A stretch of 6,551 nucleotides of DNA from Acidobacteriaceae bacterium. GTDB taxonomy: Bacteria; Acidobacteriota; Terriglobia; Terriglobales; SbA1. The stretch lies in assembly GCA_003156615.1 (NCBI GenBank), contig PMHI01000039.1, positions 1 through 6,551 of the forward strand, read 5' to 3'. The position numbers and the translations under genes are program-made. Below, one piece after another: positions 923-6,551 of the stretch; positions within the stretch are counted from its first letter, which is position 1, and each line of letters starts with the position of its first letter. A model generated the notes under the pieces. That model made no database searches. It saw only the letters and a list, made by a program, of their open reading frames with translations, and was not told the origin of the DNA.

Positions 923-1253
923 ACTCTAACGCTTAAATCTGACCATGCGTGAACGCGCACACGCTACAACACCTTTGCTTTATCCGAGTAATGGTTATTC
1001 CGCGCTTTCCTGAGGTTCCGGGCTGATCGTCGACAGGCAGCAGATTGACACGTGGCCGTGTAGTCGGCATTCCGGACAAGTGGCTTTCCGCCAAACCACG
1101 GGGCGTTACCCGGCACCGGAATCGATGCTATTTCACCCCGGGACCGACCAATACAGGGGGAACTTACCGAAAACGAGACTTCTCAGGCACTCGTATCGTT
1201 CGATCGACGCCATAGAGCGCGACGGCTTTCTCTTTGCTTCCTGAATCTTGCCA
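923..1253. other. Intergenic region between two convergent genes
   Basis: This gap holds no convincing gene. After the plus-strand stop there is a weak hairpin (GCGTG 947-951 with CACGC 960-964) without a T-run, so it is not a convincing terminator. The right half carries a palindromic repeat copy at 1109-1186. One plus frame stays open from about 1028 to 1243, but it has no good start or ribosome site and runs straight through the repeat, so I do not call it. Confidence 0.6.
1109..1186. repeat. Palindromic intergenic repeat, copy A (left arm decayed)
   Basis: The right arm at 1157-1186 (GGGGAACTTACCGAAAAC...CTCAG) matches the right arm of the copy at 4242-4319 at 26 of 30 positions without gaps. 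The left half, roughly 1109-1138, is where the partner arm should lie. It is strongly diverged, sharing about 13 of 22 positions, including TTCACC, with the left arm of the copy at 4912-4990. The CCCC (1136-1139) and GGGG (1157-1160) blocks of the tip are kept. It sits 68 bases beyond the stop of the DUF6197-like gene, between convergent genes, where a hairpin could help end transcription. Confidence 0.65.
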
Positions 1254-1763
1254 CTAAGGCTTGCTCGACGATTCCTTCTGTTGCCTTGAGAGCCGGGTGG
1301 CAATTCGTTCCTCTAGCAGCCGGAAGAACTCTTGGGTATCCGCAAAGGTTGTTCTGGGGTCGTTGTTGTAGTCCATCAATCGGTGGTCGTAGTGGTTCCC
1401 TTTCGCGAGGTCATCGTCAATCACAAACCGCGCCTGTTGCATCGCCGCCTCTCGATGTTCAAAATGGCCGCTCACTTCATCCGAAGCAATCTCGATCGCG
1501 CAGTAGAGGCTAAAGGCTTTCGCGGTCTTGGGACACTCTCTGTTGTCTGCTCGATTCCACTTCGCCGGCGAGTTTAGAATTGCCTTTGCACGTTGAACTA
1601 TCCTGACATCATCTTGCGTTACCGGAGGGTCAGCGTTTGAATCGCCCTGAAACTTGCCTTCGGTTTCGTGAGCTAAGACGGCGCTCGCAAGCATGACCTG
1701 GCTGGGGAGCACAAGCGCCAGCCATAGCCCGAGAATCGATGACCGCGTCAATGCTGTACGCAT
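1254..1763 (-). CDS. Small exported protein, DUF6197-like
   Basis: The chosen start is the ATG at 1763, giving 169 residues. GGAGGGG at 1774-1780 lies 10 bases upstream of it. The ATG at 1772 would have only a 1-base gap, and the GTG at 1805 would lie upstream of the likely promoter. Residues 1-31 form a signal peptide (Arg-containing start, hydrophobic LGLWLALVLP, cleavage likely after VLA before HE), so the protein is exported. The mature part has an Asp-rich linker, then a helical domain: RAKAILNSPAKW near 58-69, Cys77 and Cys88 in ECP...YCAIEIA, YDHRLMDYNNDP near 125-136, and a C-terminal helix. The order (Ala-rich helix with Trp, Cys-containing CAIEIA, then a NDP.T.AD segment before the last helix) resembles DUF6197, a family of unknown function. 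That assignment is my inference. The cysteines could form a disulfide. No catalytic function can be assigned. Confidence 0.8.
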   Translation of the reverse strand: MRTALTRSSILGLWLALVLPSQVMLASAVLAHETEGKFQGDSNADPPVTQDDVRIVQRAKAILNSPAKWNRADNRECPKTAKAFSLYCAIEIASDEVSGHFEHREAAMQQARFVIDDDLAKGNHYDHRLMDYNNDPRTTFADTQEFFRLLEERIATRLSRQQKESSSKP

Positions 1764-1773
1764 GTGTGCCATT

Positions 1774-1780
1774 CCCCTCC
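1774..1780 (-). promoter_or_regulatory. Ribosome binding site deciding the start of the DUF6197-like gene
   Basis: GGAGGGG read on the minus strand lies 10 bases upstream of the ATG at 1763 and only 1 base upstream of the ATG at 1772. This favours 1763 as the start. Confidence 0.6.
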
Positions 1781-1795
1781 ATTTGTGCGCGCCGA

Positions 1796-1804
1796 ATTCT
1801 AGCA
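1796..1804 (-). promoter_or_regulatory. Possible extended -10 promoter element
   Basis: The minus strand reads TGCTAGAAT, an extended -10 pattern (TG-n) with five of six bases of TATAAT. Transcription would begin near 1789, leaving a leader of about 25 bases that contains GGAGGGG and excludes the GTG at 1805. No good -35 box is visible. A second, perfect TATAAT lies further upstream at 1876-1881, so which promoter is used is open. Confidence 0.35.
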
Positions 1805-1861
1805 CCGGGCTTCTGTTCTGACGCGATACAGGGAACCGCGGCTACAGGTTCGCGGGCTCAG

Positions 1862-1909
1862 CGCCGCTCGCGGCGATTATACCGGCAATTGCTAACCCGG
1901 CCCGGGTTA
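1862..1909 (-). promoter_or_regulatory. Upstream TATAAT box flanked by two inverted repeats
   Basis: The minus strand carries a perfect TATAAT at 1876-1881. Just upstream of it (1893-1909) is a perfect palindrome with 8-base arms, TAACCCGG and CCGGGTTA, around one central base. It overlaps the expected -35 position. Immediately downstream is a short hairpin, CGCCG (1862-1866) with CGGCG (1871-1875). A palindrome at this spot is what an operator for a dimeric repressor would look like, but there is no recognisable -35 box and no regulator gene nearby. Alternatively the region is a relic of the palindromic repeat family. Confidence 0.3.
1873..1892. repeat. Possible relic of the palindromic repeat
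   Basis: The string GCGATTATACCGGCAATTGC resembles the left arm of the copy at 4242-4319 (GGGATTATCGGTAAATTGC) when one base is gapped. No clear right arm follows. It could be a decayed copy or a chance match. Confidence 0.2.
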
Positions 1910-1957
1910 CGGGCCACTCGGACGTGTCGGTGTGTTGAAGGAGTTGGTGACCGGATT

Positions 1958-1974
1958 GCTCCTGATCCAGGAGC
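1958..1974. repeat. Short perfect hairpin downstream of the ATP-grasp gene
   Basis: GCTCCTG and CAGGAGC form a 7-base stem with a 3-base loop (ATC). It lies about 70 bases beyond the stop of the ATP-grasp gene. No T-run follows on the minus strand, so it is not a standard intrinsic terminator. It could mark an mRNA 3' end or be chance. Confidence 0.3.
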
Positions 1975-2043
1975 GACGTCCGCAAGGCCGATTGGAAGCC
2001 ATTCCTCCAATAAGCCAATCATGCGACCGGCGCGAATCCTCCA

Positions 2044-3306
2044 CTAAGTCGTGCGACCGAGATCTGTCGAGCCGAGGTCCACGATTTCCCGTGCTGCGCC
2101 TGGACTCAGTGCATAGGAATTGATTGTTCCGACACTAAGAGCGGTTGCCGACTTGGGATTCAGAAGTAGGCGGGTGACCACATAGGCTAACGGGAAGAGG
2201 CTTTCGAAATCAGTCCGCACCGGTAGTAGTTCCTCCCGACCGTCTGCATATAAGCCGGTCCCTGCGATTGCTCCCATAAGCTCGACAATGACGTCGAGTC
2301 GCCTCGACCTGGAGGCTGCTTTCGACAGCAATGCCATAAGCAGCATGTGGGTCTGAACTTCTCTGCCACTCGGCTCCGCCGTCGTGACAGCCTCACCGGT
2401 TGAGACTCGCACCAATATGTCCGCAAGGTTTACGCCGCTGAAGACAGCGTTCATCGGCTCAACAAGGCGGGGGTTTGCGTCGATGAAGATTGGGACCTGA
2501 TTCTCCTCCTGGAGGATGTAATCCAAAGACAACGCGCCATGCCACTGCAATTCGTTTCCGAGCCGGCTGACATAATCACGGACGTTGGGCCGCGTGACGC
2601 TGAGCTTGGCGATATCTCCTCCGTTCAAACCTTCCGCCACTTGACGGTAGCCGTGAACGGCGACCAATCTTCCGCGGTCGAAGACGGACTGAACGCGCTC
2701 TAAGATTCCCTTCGCCGATTCCTGGACGACAAATTCCTGATCGCCTTGCAGCAGACCGCCCGACGCCAGCTCTGCACACTTAGATTTGAGTTCCTCGGCG
2801 TTGTGGATTCGCCAAACCGCTGTCGAAGCCGTTGCATAGTCGGCCTTCAGGTAGAACGGGAACCGGTGTTCGCGTAACAGCTCTTCCCGTGTTCGGATCA
2901 CACACGAAGCCGGTTGCGGTATCGATAAGCGTTCAAGAGTCCTGACGAGGGCAGCCTTTCCCTGAATCTGAAGGAAAGATTGGAAATCTGCAACGGCTAG
3001 TCCAATTCCCGGCGGAATGCGCGCTCTTTCCCTGGAGAACAGAAATGCTTGTTCGTGCGTCGGAAAGAGCACGTCCCAATGGCCACTGGAGAGGAGATCC
3101 AGCACAACATCCAGGTATGTCTTGGGGTCCTTGCCGATCGGAGGGCACCGGTAGAAATGAGTGACAAATCGTGAGAAACGTCCGAGACACAACGGACTGG
3201 GATCGCAGACCCCGATCTGATGGCCTGCGATGCCGAGTGCCGTAACCGCCTCCCGCGACGAAAGACTCGAGCCTTCCGACAGCAAGATTCGTTTCCGTGA
3301 GGACAT
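2044..3306 (-). CDS. ATP-grasp domain protein, stand-alone carboxylate-amine ligase-like
   Basis: The chosen start is the ATG at 3306 (420 residues, MSSRKRILLSEG), where the usual N-terminal nucleotide-fold strand begins. The frame is open further, to a TTG at 3384, but that stretch looks non-coding. No clear ribosome site precedes 3306, and an in-frame GTG at 3330 is an alternative. Residues 1-110 form the pre-ATP-grasp domain. The ATP-grasp core includes QGKAALVRTL near 116-125 with Lys117, FYLKAD with Lys154, FVVQES with Glu196, Asp262 in LSLDYI, and FIDANPR with Asp276 and Asn278. These are the expected nucleotide- and Mg-binding positions by pattern. ATP-grasp enzymes join a carboxylate to an amine or thiol through an acylphosphate. 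Both substrates are unknown here. About 100 residues follow the core. No biosynthetic partner gene is adjacent, so the pathway cannot be inferred. A cytoplasmic location is inferred. Confidence 0.85.
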   Translation of the reverse strand: MSSRKRILLSEGSSLSSREAVTALGIAGHQIGVCDPSPLCLGRFSRFVTHFYRCPPIGKDPKTYLDVVLDLLSSGHWDVLFPTHEQAFLFSRERARIPPGIGLAVADFQSFLQIQGKAALVRTLERLSIPQPASCVIRTREELLREHRFPFYLKADYATASTAVWRIHNAEELKSKCAELASGGLLQGDQEFVVQESAKGILERVQSVFDRGRLVAVHGYRQVAEGLNGGDIAKLSVTRPNVRDYVSRLGNELQWHGALSLDYILQEENQVPIFIDANPRLVEPMNAVFSGVNLADILVRVSTGEAVTTAEPSGREVQTHMLLMALLSKAASRSRRLDVIVELMGAIAGTGLYADGREELLPVRTDFESLFPLAYVVTRLLLNPKSATALSVGTINSYALSPGAAREIVDLGSTDLGRTT

Positions 3307-3639
3307 GCTGTAAACCGCTATTGTGCTCACCTCTAATGATGCGAGACTCAGGATACAGGCTTGGAGGGCGCAGGCCCGGGCCAACTACCGACTTTGGCGT
3401 CGATCTCTCTAAAGGTTCTGCTACTTGGAACGAGCCACACGTATCCCGTCGATGGATGAAACGGATTAGTCCTGGATGGCCAGGCCACTCGGAAGCAAAC
3501 CTGGAGAGGGGCGGCCTGATCTCTTGGTATCGAAGTGTCTGAAAAACGGGATTTTCGGTAAATTCGACCGGGCGCCCCGACCACGGGGAACCACCGCGTC
3601 GGGGCCCTGTAATTCTTCTACGCCAAGGGTGAAAAGACT
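3307..3639. other. Intergenic region upstream of the ATP-grasp gene
   Basis: I see no supported gene here; the open frames in both directions read through the repeat at 3539-3614. A small palindrome, GGCCCGGGCC, lies at 3373-3382. No convincing promoter could be picked for the ATP-grasp gene, although it must start in this gap unless it is read through from the VOC gene. Confidence 0.6.
3539..3614. repeat. Palindromic intergenic repeat, copy C (right arm decayed)
   Basis: The left arm at 3539-3565 matches the left arm of the copy at 4242-4319 at about 24 of 27 positions, including ACGGGATT and TCGGTAAATT. The tip is kept as CCCC (3575-3578) and GGGGAAC (3585-3591), at nearly the same distance as in the full copy (46 against 48 bases). 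After GGGGAAC the right arm has diverged, with only ACCG recognisable. It lies 26 bases beyond the stop of the VOC gene. Confidence 0.65.
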
Positions 3640-4095
3640 CTAGCCGGCGGTCGCGCTCGCCATGCGCGTCTCCATTTCCTCCGGCGGAACATCTTCGACG
3701 TGCGTGCCAATCGTCCACTTGTAGCCGAACGGATCGAGAAAAGTTCCGGAACGATCGCCGTAGAACTGATTTTTCACCGGACGCAGGACTTCGGCTCCCG
3801 CTGCGACGGCCTTTTTTGTGAAAGCGTCGACGTCGTCGACGTAGAGCATCAGACTGACCGGCGATCCGTTGTGATGTTTGGGGCCGTACGCATCCATTTG
3901 CCGGGCTTCATCGGCCAGCATAATCCGAGAGTTTCCGATCAGAATCTCGGCGTGCCCGATCCGGTCCCCCATCGGCATACGAAAGAGTTCCTGTGCGCCG
4001 AATGCCTTCGCGTAGAAATCAATCGCGGACTTGGCATCCTCGAAGATGAGATATGGCGTGATAGAGCTATATCCGTCGGGAATTGGCTTGACCAT
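3640..4095 (-). CDS. VOC family protein (glyoxalase fold, PhnB-like)
   Basis: The ATG at 4095 is well supported by AAGGAGGA at 4103-4110, seven bases upstream. The protein has 151 residues, a usual length for single-chain PhnB-like VOC proteins. It shows the two paired beta-alpha-beta-beta-beta modules. The first runs from SITPYLIFEDAKSAIDFYAKAFGA to the IGHAEILIG strand with His48. The second runs from VSLMLYVDDVDAFTKKAVAAGA to the closing strand FLDPFGYKW near 119-127. VOC proteins include metal-dependent lyases, dioxygenases and antibiotic-binding proteins. His48 sits where a metal ligand is expected. The closing strand has DPFG and no obvious Glu ligand, so catalysis is uncertain. It is a cytoplasmic protein with unknown substrate. 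Resistance or detoxification would be a guess. It stands alone, with repeat copies on either side. Confidence 0.9.
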   Translation of the reverse strand: MVKPIPDGYSSITPYLIFEDAKSAIDFYAKAFGAQELFRMPMGDRIGHAEILIGNSRIMLADEARQMDAYGPKHHNGSPVSLMLYVDDVDAFTKKAVAAGAEVLRPVKNQFYGDRSGTFLDPFGYKWTIGTHVEDVPPEEMETRMASATAG

Positions 4096-4102
4096 GACAA
4101 AG

Positions 4103-4110
4103 TCCTCCTT
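4103..4110 (-). promoter_or_regulatory. Strong ribosome binding site of the VOC gene
   Basis: AAGGAGGA on the minus strand ends seven bases before the ATG at 4095. It is the clearest Shine-Dalgarno sequence in the window; several neighbouring genes have none that is recognisable. Confidence 0.75.
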
Positions 4111-4113
4111 CCA

Positions 4114-4141
4114 TGGACGAATGTCCAGTGCCAGGAGTATA
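4114..4141 (-). promoter_or_regulatory. Possible -10 box and leader hairpin of the VOC gene
   Basis: The minus strand reads TATACT at 4136-4141, five of six bases of a -10 box, without a recognisable -35. A transcript would begin near 4129. A 5-base inverted repeat, TGGAC (4114-4118) with GTCCA (4123-4127) and a GAAT loop, lies between there and the ribosome site. It could be an operator or a leader hairpin next to the Shine-Dalgarno sequence. This is a pattern match only. Confidence 0.3.
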
Positions 4142-4226
4142 GACCTTCCGGGCTCAACGCATCTGCGACTTGGTTCCCGTCTCGCCGGAAATCTCGCAGG
4201 TCACTTTTTTGATCAGGCGGGCGGTC

Positions 4227-4240
4227 GAAGTTACCGGAAA
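4227..4240. repeat. Extra repeat-arm fragment beside copy B
   Basis: GAAGTTACCGGAAA resembles the right-arm core GAACTTACCGAAAA at 12 of 14 positions. It lies immediately left of the full copy at 4242-4319, giving an arm order of right, left, right. This suggests a nested or partly deleted second copy. Confidence 0.4.
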
Positions 4241-4241
4241 G

Positions 4242-4319
4242 CTGGAAAACGGGATTATCGGTAAATTGCTTCTGCCTGCCCCTTCGGCTGGGGAACTTAC
4301 CGAAAACCCGACTTTGCAG
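4242..4319. repeat. Palindromic intergenic repeat, copy B (most complete)
   Basis: This 78-base imperfect palindrome runs from CTG (4242-4244) to CAG (4317-4319). The left arm contains AAAACGGGATTATCGGTAAA. The right arm at 4290-4319 begins GGGGAACTTACCGAAAACCC. Read in reverse complement, the right arm follows the same scheme as the left: CTG, A-run, CGGG, T-rich, CGGTAA, TT. The tip has CCCC at 4279-4282 and GGGG at 4290-4293. It has no coding capacity. It lies 154 bases beyond the stop of the two-helix membrane protein and about 150 bases upstream of the VOC start. Confidence 0.8.
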
Positions 4320-4473
4320 GAAGATCGAGCTTGAGTTTTGGCTTGGTTCCTCGGCAACTTGACGGCAAATGTGGCGAGTGCGCCCGCACTTCTCCGGGGA
4401 AAGGCCCGTTTTATCGTGCAAGTGTCCTGGTGCCTTGGCCGATTGCTTCTCGATCGGGCACGCTACTGGTCAG

Positions 4474-4797
4474 CTAGAGTAATTGCCGACGGATCCGCTT
4501 CTTCTCGTTGCGTACAACAAGCCAAGGTATAAGCACCGCGAGCGCCCAGTGGTAAAGCACCGCTAGTTTATATGTCCAGGAGCTCTCAAATTCAGGGTGG
4601 AACATTATGAGAATGCCCATCCCAGTAAATAACAAAGAGGGAAGCAACGTTCGCCGTAAGAGCGAGCGGTTAGCTTCTAACCGTTCTAGCTCCAGTCGGA
4701 CTTCCCGTCGGGTACGCAGAACCAGAGTTTGCGAAGCAAGCGGAATGTATTCAGGTGTGCCTAGCTCAATAGGCTCCTTGCCTTCACCGAGAGACAT
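4474..4797 (-). CDS. Small two-helix membrane protein, unrecognised
   Basis: The chosen start is the ATG at 4797 (107 residues, MSLGEGKEPIELG). The frame is open upstream to a TTG at 4905, but those codons encode a Cys- and Arg-rich stretch that looks untranslated and abuts the repeat at 4912-4990. No ribosome site is visible at 4797, so the start is uncertain. From this start, residues 28-50 form a charged helix (RREVRLELERLEANRSLLRR) that could be a short coiled coil. Two hydrophobic segments follow at about 51-66 (LLPSLLFTGMGILIMF) and 78-95 (LAVLYHWALAVLIPWLVV), and the protein ends in a basic tail (RNEKKRIRRQLL). Charge distribution suggests both ends face the cytoplasm. I do not recognise the family. 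It is simple in sequence and could be a subunit or a regulator of a membrane protein, but the neighbours give no hint. Confidence 0.6.
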   Translation of the reverse strand: MSLGEGKEPIELGTPEYIPLASQTLVLRTRREVRLELERLEANRSLLRRTLLPSLLFTGMGILIMFHPEFESSWTYKLAVLYHWALAVLIPWLVVRNEKKRIRRQLL

Positions 4798-4911
4798 AGT
4801 GATGTGTTGACGCGGTTCGGAGGCGCAAAGACCCCTTGTGTCACTCAGAGGTAATTCGCTGTAAGGTCGGCTTTTCCCACAGGCGCCCATTCGGTGCTGA
4901 CGCAAAGTTCC

Positions 4912-4990
4912 CGTGAAACGGGGGTTTGAGTAACTTCACCTGTTTACCAGATGATCACTCCGGGAACTTACCGAAAACCCGACCTTGCAG
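4912..4990. repeat. Palindromic intergenic repeat, copy D
   Basis: The right arm at 4961-4990 matches copy B at 28 of 30 positions, and identity continues as GGAAG beyond it. The left arm near 4912-4941 is more diverged (GGGGGTTTGAGTAACTTCACC). It begins with CCCGT-GAA-ACGGG, itself a small hairpin. Seventeen bases here (4906-4922) recur exactly at the right end of the window. A further 6-base inverted repeat, GGAAGT (4990-4995) with ACTTCC (5007-5012), follows at once. The copy lies about 100 bases beyond the amidohydrolase stop. Confidence 0.75.
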
Positions 4991-5074
4991 GAAGTACGCG
5001 GGATTCACTTCCGGATTACCCGTCAACCTCCAGCGATCAATCGAAAAATACAATGGGCTTCCGACTGTACACCC

Positions 5075-5095
5075 TGGGGTTTTCGGGTAATTTCA
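5075..5095. repeat. Solo repeat arm touching the amidohydrolase stop codon
   Basis: TGGGGTTTTCGGGTAATTTCA resembles the left-arm core CGGGTTTTCGGTAA..TTC with one inserted G. It overlaps the amidohydrolase stop codon (5093-5095), and no partner arm follows, because coding sequence begins there. It could be a half copy left by deletion, or an insertion that supplied or trimmed the gene's end. Confidence 0.45.
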
Positions 5096-6334
5096 TTTCT
5101 CTGCGTAGATGACGTCTCCACCGCGGATCGTGTAGCGAACTTTTGAAAATGCCGAGGTGTTCTGAGCCGGATCGGCACTTAGGACCACAAGGTCGGCATC
5201 CATTCCTTTTCCGATGCGTCCGCTGTGAATTGCGTAGCCGAAGCGCTGGGCGGGGTTCGTGGTGAGCGAAGCAAGAATCCCCTGGAAACTCATTCCGGCG
5301 CGGGACATCCACTTGAGTTCTTCGGAAGTGTCGAAGCGCTCGATGAAGCCAACGTCGGTGCCGAAGAGAACTTGTCCTCCTGCTTGGTAGAAAGCCCCCA
5401 GTTGCTGGGCCGCCCTGCTCATGCCCTTTTCGAGTTCGTCAGGTGAGGCGTTCGGGGACACGACTTCCCAAAGGGTAAGCGTCGGGGTAAGGGCCATGTG
5501 AGCTGCCGTCAGGCGGTGGACGAAAGACGGACTCCAGAGGTCATCGGTGGGAGTCGTGTGGGCCAGGATATCGACCCCGCTCTGAATCGCTACCTCGATG
5601 CCTTGATTATTGGAGACATGAGCAAAAACAGGTTTGCCAGCATGGTGGGCCTCGGCGACGATCAATTGGGCCAGATCTAAAGGCATGGTTAACATGCCAT
5701 CGCGCTCCGCGGAATTCGCGAAAATCTTGATGCCATCTGCTCCGTCGTTGATCTGCTGGCGCACTCGCTCTTTGGCTTGCGCCGTTGATTCCACCTCCGG
5801 AATGCTGATGTGATTGGCTTCGAGGAAGCCCTGAACGTAAATCGGCGTTCCGCCTTTCATCCAGAATGGCTCACCGGTTGTGAGAATCTGCGGCCCTTTC
5901 ACTTCGCCGCTTTCTATGCGATGGCGGATGAGATTGGTGTTCTGGAGCACGGAAGCGATGTCAAAGACGGTCGTGAATCCCCACCGTGTGAGCATCTGTT
6001 GAAGCTGTGAGGTGATCTGCCCGGAGGAGAGATTTTCGGCATGAAGTAATCCCGGCAAAAGAATGTGTACGTGGCTGTTCCAGAAACCTGCAGTCACGAC
6101 GAGGCCCTTGCAGTCTATTACGGTCGTACCGCGTGGGACTTTGATCTCTGCAATCGGCCCAACCGATAGAATGTGGCCGCTGTGTACAAGGATTGTGCCG
6201 CTTTCGATTGGTGGCGCGGCTGGGGAGATATAAATCTTTGCACCAACCAAGGCCAGATCGGACGCGTGGCTTTGGAAAGTTGCAAAAAAAATTGCCAAAA
6301 CCAGAAGAAGAGGCAGCGCCACTCGAAGTCGCAT
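5093..6334 (-). CDS. Exported metal-dependent amidohydrolase
   Basis: The chosen start is the ATG at 6334 (413 residues), because it begins a clean signal peptide: MRLR, a hydrophobic run LPLLLVLAIFFATF, and cleavage likely after SHA at residue 24. The ATG at 6427 would add 31 residues with no secretion logic. Neither start has a visible ribosome site. The mature protein begins with the small beta domain (LALVGAKIYI...GTILVHSGHILSVG). The metal ligands follow in family order: His88 and His90 in NSHVH, Lys203 in DGIKIFA (candidate bridging lysine), His239 in VFAHVSN, His259 in ILAHTTP and Asp327 in LFGTDVG. The C-terminal strand GKGMDADLVVLSADP closes the beta domain. This is the imidazolonepropionase/prolidase-like branch of the amidohydrolase superfamily, often secreted and acting on amide or cyclic imide bonds. 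The substrate is not predictable. All expected catalytic residues are present. A periplasmic location is inferred. Confidence 0.9.
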   Translation of the reverse strand: MRLRVALPLLLVLAIFFATFQSHASDLALVGAKIYISPAAPPIESGTILVHSGHILSVGPIAEIKVPRGTTVIDCKGLVVTAGFWNSHVHILLPGLLHAENLSSGQITSQLQQMLTRWGFTTVFDIASVLQNTNLIRHRIESGEVKGPQILTTGEPFWMKGGTPIYVQGFLEANHISIPEVESTAQAKERVRQQINDGADGIKIFANSAERDGMLTMPLDLAQLIVAEAHHAGKPVFAHVSNNQGIEVAIQSGVDILAHTTPTDDLWSPSFVHRLTAAHMALTPTLTLWEVVSPNASPDELEKGMSRAAQQLGAFYQAGGQVLFGTDVGFIERFDTSEELKWMSRAGMSFQGILASLTTNPAQRFGYAIHSGRIGKGMDADLVVLSADPAQNTSAFSKVRYTIRGGDVIYAEK

Positions 6335-6341
6335 GTTCAAA

Positions 6342-6388
6342 ATATACGACGTAAGCGAAGGAATCGTTCCGAAGTGACTCTTGGAACG
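6342..6388 (-). promoter_or_regulatory. Inverted repeat and AT-rich box upstream of the amidohydrolase
   Basis: CGTTCC (6365-6370) and GGAACG (6383-6388) form a perfect 6-base inverted repeat with a 12-base spacer, starting 30 bases upstream of the ATG at 6334. Between it and the ATG the minus strand reads TATATT, a -10-like box followed by only a few bases before the ATG. If that box is used, the mRNA would be nearly leaderless, which would fit the missing ribosome site. No -35 box is clear. The inverted repeat also lies inside the longer reading frame from 6427. Confidence 0.3.
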
Positions 6389-6534
6389 GTCGCTTTGCCA
6401 TGCTGGACGGATAGTGAGAAAGCTCATTCAACAATTCGATCATCCGGCTCAGAAGCGACTCTTCACCTAAAAGAGGACGCACTGGGCAGATGGTCGGCAA
6501 CTCGGAAGCCATGCAGCCTTGAGCGTCGTGGAGG

Positions 6535-6551
6535 AGTTCCCGTGAAACGGG
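6535..6551. repeat. Left edge of another palindromic repeat copy, cut by the window end
   Basis: The last 17 bases, AGTTCCCGTGAAACGGG, are identical to 4906-4922, where they enter the left arm of copy D. The match stops only because the sequence ends, so a further copy probably continues outside the window. Confidence 0.6.

Follow-up and report, generated by a model that had tools for sequence, protein, structure and literature searches.

Inverted site doublets dispersed between genes of one Acidobacteriota order: candidate paired recognition sites of a Xer-type recombinase

The window analysed here, a stretch of 6,551 nucleotides of an Acidobacteriaceae bacterium (assembly GCA_003156615.1, contig PMHI01000039.1), carries between its genes several copies of an element that is built from two inverted sites, L and R. 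We tentatively propose that these elements are paired, inverted recognition sites of a Xer-type tyrosine recombinase which delimit swappable gene modules, and we give this reading slightly less than an even chance. A full copy consists of two inverted 36-bp sites, L (arm-ACGGGG-arm) and R (arm-CCCGAC-arm), and the consensus of 54 copies reads CGnAGTTCCCGnAAA-ACGGGG-TTTTCGGnAACTTCG, a linker, and CGAACTTGCCGAAAA-CCCGAC-TTTnCGGGAACTTCG. In each of these half-sites two inverted arms of ~11-15 bp flank a 6-bp spacer. One motif underlies all four arms, the outer like the inner ones, and for this reason the element as a whole appears palindromic. In one reading sense, the L and R spacers are ACGGGG and GTCGGG, respectively, and the element therefore has a direction. 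Five columns are invariant (54/54): the spacers hold four of these, and the fifth is a T of the left inner arm. Conservation stops ~15 nt beyond each spacer in copies chosen by regular-expression anchors that require a recognisable core, a choice that also applies to the same-linker comparison below. Covariation within the palindrome is slight, with 74.4% of cells paired versus 72.4% after shuffling, and lies above all 500 shuffles.

A sequence-only reading of the window had described four related, palindromic copies with shared arms, starting at 1109, 3539, 4242 and 4912. Homology was confirmed for four pairs, namely 4242 with 4912, 1109 and 3539, and 1109 with 4912, each of which beats 2000/2000 dinucleotide shuffles; the pairs 1109-3539 (1223/2000 shuffles as good) and 3539-4912 (160/2000) do not rise above them, and the copies 1109 and 3539 each preserve one half. 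Shared arms hold for the right arms of 4912 and 1109, which agree with that of 4242 at 97% and 82% over 33 nt, and for the left arms of 4242 and 4912, which agree with that of 3539 at 92% and 69% over 26 nt. Matrices for L and R find no partner site at 3539 or at 1109, whose right and left arms, respectively, are unrecognisable. Palindromy exceeds shuffles for copy 4242 alone (3/2000) and stays within their range for 4912 (257/2000), 3539 (1382/2000) and 1109 (1458/2000). A fifth copy, cut by the end of the window, had been overlooked: positions 6535-6551 are identical to 4906-4922 (17/17). The matrices were trained on 52 copies of other genomes, themselves first found by a model of the window copies, and the six L and R sites that they find at the four copies each score above the maximum of 60 resamplings:

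1159..1192, + strand: solo R site, its partner L at ~1109 unrecognisable (score 37.9, resampling maximum 15.9)
3534..3566, + strand: solo L site, its partner R at ~3585-3614 unrecognisable (score 37.5, resampling maximum 12.1)
4237..4269, + strand: L site of the best preserved doublet (score 18.9)
4292..4325, + strand: R site of the best preserved doublet (score 46.7; L-R distance 61 bp, ~six helical turns)
4906..4938, + strand: L site of the second doublet (score 37.8)
4963..4996, + strand: R site of the second doublet (score 40.9; L-R distance 63 bp)
6535..6551, + strand: further L site truncated at the window end, of which the outer arm and the first part of the spacer are left (score 22.1, resampling maximum 17.4)

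A weak L-like stretch at ~5071-5093 that had been spotted by eye was dropped, since it is not among the best matrix scores. Rfam gave no match at the window elements.

These copies belong to a dispersed, multi-copy and largely intergenic palindromic family, as had been supposed from the window alone. The profile search of other genomes, which had been named as a check, found matches of the window-copy model (E<=0.01) in 25/298 genomes of one Acidobacteriota order. Here the best 12 candidates per genome were scored, in the phylum-wide search the best 10, and for counts with a refined model (54 copies, E<=1, both strands) the best 150. With our own handles for the genomes, the refined model matches 101 times in G093, 61 in G130, 34 in G045, 28 in its sister genome G056, 18 in G083, four in G302 and three in G139. 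In a draw from the whole phylum 11/396 genomes match (E<=0.001), and the labels of all 11 are within the range of the order's draw. The elements lie on chromosome-sized contigs; exact-pattern scans gave 0 matches in general genome contigs and in viral contigs, and blastn of one 111-bp copy gave none in plasmid and phage records. No description of the family appears among the listed titles and abstract beginnings of the open-access literature on Acidobacteria repeats, on integrons, attC and clusters of attC sites lacking integron-integrases (CALIN), on dif and pdif, or on Terriglobus and Granulicella cassettes. A looser pattern finds, e.g., in G056, G083 and G036, sites like CCGATAA-GTCGGC-TTATnnG, perhaps a sister subfamily with arms nearer to the XerC arm of dif.

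The copies had also been taken to be of nearly constant length. Instead, the lengths of the model matches are stepped and cluster at 81-87, 92-96 and 100-108, with few in between. For 136 lengths the best period is 10.5 bp with a resultant of 0.62, which 0/2000 smoothed controls reach, and the phasing is seen separately in G093, G130, G045, G083 and the remaining genomes; antisense duplicates, G056, one G037 match scoring like G023 and matches weaker than ~7e-6 were left out of this set. As a safeguard against an artefact of the model, separate profiles were also used to locate L and R. The 98 L-R distances found in this way peak near 42, 52 and 62 bp, ~one helical turn apart, with a resultant of 0.55 at 10.5 and a best value of 0.57 at a period of 9.7, reached by 0/5000 controls; 59 distinct inner segments retain the phasing (resultant 0.42, given without a control run). 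Spacing by whole helical turns points to protein-bound duplex DNA, and since L and R are ~4, 5 or 6 turns apart, a recombinase on both would face the same side of the duplex. A single-stranded hairpin gives no cause for phasing, whereas proteins on one face of the duplex do. The hairpin was rejected as the working form for this reason and because only two of the four window copies, 4242 (0/200 shuffles as good) and 3539 (5/200), fold better as DNA than their shuffles; 4912 (28/200) and 1109 (106/200) do not.

Whichever reading is right, it has to account for the helical phasing, which is a strong constraint. Together with the dyad symmetry of each site the phasing would fit equally well the cooperative binding of a nucleoid or regulatory protein, a dimer of which would hold L and R on one helix face, with breakpoints and duplications resulting from ordinary homologous recombination between repeats. 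However, such a protein predicts neither the spread of inner segments with sharp ends at the spacers (see below), nor the invariant spacer letters, nor coherently oriented clusters in islands, and we consider it improbable.

The elements form arrays, ~14 kb and ~26 kb long in G045 and 28 kb in G093, and the examined DNA flanking these arrays contains no refined-model match; a looser profile adds one partial match in a G045 flank. In the examined regions, which were mostly chosen for holding or flanking elements, the median gap between copies is 1.3 kb, that is ~one gene, and the units between copies mostly have 1-2 open reading frames (ORFs) in both orientations (longest-ORF calling, units <2.2 kb). 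The elements themselves are coherently oriented. Neighbouring copies within one locus (<=20 kb) have the same orientation in 127/137 cases and the opposite one in 10, and 29/34 clusters of at least three copies, the window counted among them, are wholly coherent versus 5.4 expected. G056 was left out of the orientation and cluster counts and likewise of the L-R distances and of the same-linker, homology-end, alternation and target-duplication counts. Replication-strand bias was rejected as the cause of this coherence, since clusters on one replichore of G056 or G083 carry both signs (few clusters, judged by eye, with replichores assigned from candidate dif places). The alternation of open and close sites was also discarded as evidence: doublets alternate trivially, and pairs at a distance of 60-3000 nt comprise 111 alternating and 45 non-alternating ones.

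Related copies lose their identity at the spacers, which is suggestive of exchange as far as sequence comparison can tell. In G093, 12 copies form four same-linker groups with inner segments that are 84-98% identical in unrelated contexts. The inner arms of 12 same-linker pairs of this genome are identical at 0.95/0.94, versus 0.60/0.69 in 89 different-linker pairs, and the corresponding values are 0.85/0.79 versus 0.90/0.71 for the spacers, 0.57/0.62 versus 0.50/0.54 for the outer arms and 0.27/0.25 versus 0.24/0.25 for the flanks. Moreover, 9 of the 292 ends counted for longer homologous stretches lie at a spacer, versus 2.1 expected. The clearest of them include a 326-bp stretch of G083 and G045 (90% identical) that stops in a spacer, a 256-bp stretch at two G130 places which comprises R, the linker and the inner L arm and ends at the L spacer, 432 bp common to G139 and G083, and 300 bp common to two places in G130. 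A 1042-bp stretch of G159 and G083 carries a 324-aa ORF that is intact in both genomes; the other longer stretches contain fragments of ORFs or an ORF that only one of the two sides has intact. Furthermore, three G093 contig ends have in common a 1005-bp unit (99.9-100% identical) that is bounded by element sequence and contains a single 281-aa ORF, which requires at least two copies. The sisters G045 and G056 have a 6.4-kb difference with one end in an L spacer, and three more of their locus pairs show few differences.

According to the proposed explanation, a tyrosine recombinase would bind the two inverted arms around the 6-bp spacer of each site. As the L and R spacers differ in the same sense, L would pair with L and R with R. 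A crossover in the spacer would then swap the DNA outside the doublet, usually 1-2 genes in either orientation, or alternatively its inside, a linker of up to ~25 nt. Repeated exchange, which may still occur today, would build head-to-tail arrays of gene modules in a single element orientation. The enzyme would act in trans and would most likely be the host XerCD.

The main rival is a miniature transposable element of the miniature inverted-repeat transposable element (MITE) kind, in which the segment from spacer to spacer, mostly ~43-66 nt with long inverted ends, would move alone and insert into targets resembling the outer arms, while the genes stay put. It is favoured by the inner segments that recur in unrelated contexts, all of which are from G093, and by the relatives of a G093 inter-element gene and of the window amidohydrolase that have no elements nearby. 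However, target-site duplications, which had been named as a further check, are not above shuffles at either boundary of 103 copies: at the spacers k>=4 occurs at 0.019 versus 0.036 shuffled, and at the outer ends k>=4 at 0.252 versus 0.247 and k>=6 at 0.029 versus 0.018. One strict pattern for an empty site with joined outer arms found none on both strands of the 3.2 Mb examined, and no full-length element came to light. The same motif in outer and inner arms also speaks against such an element, and the co-oriented clusters as well as the longer units losing identity at spacers are left unexplained by it. We regard it as rather unlikely.

A likeness to repetitive extragenic palindromic (REP) sequences, bacterial interspersed mosaic elements (BIMEs) or MITEs had originally been suggested, with a partner transposase to be looked for. 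Like REP, BIME and REPIN sequences, the elements are palindromes in many copies and mostly intergenic, and such palindromes would be mobilised by a REP-associated tyrosine transposase (RAYT). In contrast to them, the elements have no RAYT link, stand in co-oriented arrays and have spacers, where REP carries a tetranucleotide foot. Genes of the RAYT type (Y1_Tnp) do not track the presence of elements across genomes: the element-rich G045 and G059 have none, whereas 2-7 are found in G001, G009 and G010, which have no element match, and in G003, which has chance-level matches only. Among ten Y1 loci there was one weak element-like match (E 0.07). Given also the lack of target duplications and the co-oriented clusters of two-site elements, the suggested likeness is unsupported in this form, a small MITE-like element being the main rival, and mobilisation by RAYT seems to us extremely improbable.

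By its layout the element resembles Acinetobacter dif modules and integron attC sites, and we claim membership in neither. PMC13141974 and PMC12907356 describe Acinetobacter dif modules as gene-sized, with a 6-bp spacer between inverted ~11-bp arms, alternately inverted sites and recombination between sites with like spacers. The elements share with these modules (pdif/XerCD, on Acinetobacter plasmids and chromosomes) the two inverted arms around a 6-bp spacer, but their arms hardly match the XerD arm of dif, and in one Acidobacteriota order they form phased doublets, with two fixed types of spacer, on contigs of chromosome size. Dif modules rely on the host XerCD and are not known to encode a recombinase themselves. 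The attP of CTXphi consists of two inverted dif-like sites in one hairpin, and the elements are similar to it in having paired inverted Xer-like sites close together; unlike attP, which is a folded single phage strand, they are phased duplex sites, numerous, and located between chromosomal genes. A comparison of CTXphi with integron cassettes is part of PMC4792948.

With integron attC sites and CALIN the elements have in common the four boxes around a variable middle (R''-L''-variable-L'-R'), ~one element per gene and coherent element orientation, which would fit a diverged integron array as well. In such an array the doublet would be an attC site, recombined as a folded single strand by an integron integrase. 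The motifs of attC are RYYYAAC and GTTRRRY, and 0/54 copies have both at attC distance on either strand. Moreover, 0/25 element-bearing genomes reach the cut-off for an integron integrase (TIGR02249), the ORFs are of mixed polarity, signs of crossover are seen at both spacers, and the helical phasing, a sign of duplex binding, would be without reason in a single-stranded hairpin. Previous models of attC sites of Acidobacteria are dealt with in part of PMC8352920. A diverged integron array appears very improbable to us.

Returning to the Xer-type recombinase, adjacent integrase genes were considered and set aside; they occur in 25/25 element-bearing genomes (by eye, among the matches listed), and the adjacent pair in one G093 locus looks like XerC and XerD. 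Matches of ~305 aa resembling IntI, found in 6/25 genomes, are presumably an IS91-associated recombinase. In G130 a 503-aa tyrosine-recombinase-like ORF (L181:4526-6037, L with a three-digit number denoting a locus) is separated by 169 bp from the first element of a co-oriented group of four, and one of 266 aa (L185:17164-17964) lies 87 bp from another element. A search of 14 element-bearing genomes that allowed 3 mismatches gave no match to the candidate dif of G003, ACTTCCGATAA-CGTATA-TTATGTAAACT. For the element-bearing G056 the candidate is GTGTCCGATAA-CACATA-TTATGTATAGT, which was picked from many loose matches and recurs in G036 and nearly in G083. Among random genomic 11-mers, the XerC arms of G056, G036 and G003 match the element arms with p 0.0003-0.0044 (G056 0.0003-0.0020).

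Several results weigh against a Xer-type system with mobile gene modules. Among 11-mers ending in AA, the p of the XerC arms weakens to 0.004-0.06 (G056 0.004-0.03) and is 0.07-0.15 for G083, the XerC arm of B. subtilis scores about equally well on the outer arms, and the XerD arms of G056 and G003 barely match the element arms (p 0.016-0.28). Integrase-like ORFs are found in just 7/81 element or flank loci and none in the window, and the lack of an integron integrase above the cut-off counts here, too. The nine homology ends at spacers include three that have one end in common and one that lies next to Ns. Among the longer units only the 1042-bp stretch keeps a complete ORF in the two genomes compared, and where it meets the element its boundary is ambiguous. 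At the opposite end of the 6.4-kb difference between G045 and G056 there is no element, and other differences between these sisters are outside elements. Finally, the G093 gene between two elements has relatives of 77-86% identity in other genomes (two candidates scored in each), and in four of them no element is near it (~1.5 kb flank).

The genes of the window lie between its sites, and the 446-aa product listed second looks to us like an ATP-grasp protein, which is our assumption:

1254..1805, - strand: DUF6197 gene (Pfam PF19698), unit from R 1159 to L 3534
2044..3384, - strand: second gene of the same unit, 446 aa (ORF, no Pfam match)
3640..4095, - strand: glyoxalase superfamily gene (PF00903), unit from L 3534 to L 4237
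4474..4905, - strand: 143-aa gene of no family (ORF), unit from R 4292 to L 4906
5093..6427, - strand: amidohydrolase gene (PF01979), unit from R 4963 to L 6535

A comparison of the window with 397 genomes of the order, for each of which two candidates were scored, gave matches in 57. Among the matches listed, each sits within one window gene or slightly past its ends, and no two different window genes stand side by side in these other genomes. The window amidohydrolase is 85% identical to a protein of an Acidobacteriaceae metagenome-assembled genome. The G139 amidohydrolase is 86% identical to it from the stop codon to just above the start, with unrelated flanks, and no element is present in the examined G139 locus. 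Such relatives without elements fit genes entering an array and also elements entering beside genes. A sub-threshold Rfam match to RNaseP-T inside the amidohydrolase coding sequence (6211-6322, + strand; 26 bits with a gathering threshold of 60, E 0.013) is probably due to chance.

Further sequences are in contact with the elements. Inside R spacers of G130 and G093 there is a sequence of ~215 bp with inverted ends (GTGTTGCATCGACC...), which in L175 is bordered by CCCG on both sides. By analogy it is possibly a MITE targeting these sites, as some insertion sequences (IS) target pdif sites. A sequence of ~0.95 kb, which we take to be an IS110-type transposase, stops within a few bases of an element in G120 and has two further copies in G130. 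In addition, ~65-100 nt upstream of L (AATCGCCAACTC...TCGGACAAGTGGTTCC) are common to copies of three genomes and are perhaps a gene-less module or a small RNA. The places are:

L116:2824-3068, L175:6109-6350, L185:9333-9561 and L115:9042-9267: ~215-bp insert
L140:8568-9515 (G120), L185:15722-16650 and 18699-19630 (G130): ~0.95-kb sequence
L108:4640-4900, L173:10395-10650, L121:6905-7160 and L197:8540-8800: shared stretch upstream of L

With more reserve than for the recombination sites themselves, it can be suggested that, after integrons and the dif modules of plasmids, the elements constitute a third kind of gene-cassette system in bacteria, in which a host recombinase shuffles single-gene modules via twin Xer-type sites spaced by 4, 5 or 6 helical turns in chromosomal arrays of one Acidobacteriota order, and in which two incompatible spacers lock the orientation of the element. 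If this is true, soil bacteria would hold an unrecognised gene-shuffling system without a dedicated integrase. Its layout would be intermediate between Xer sites and integron attC sites, and the proposed path from Xer to integrons, as discussed in part of PMC4792948, would thus become testable.

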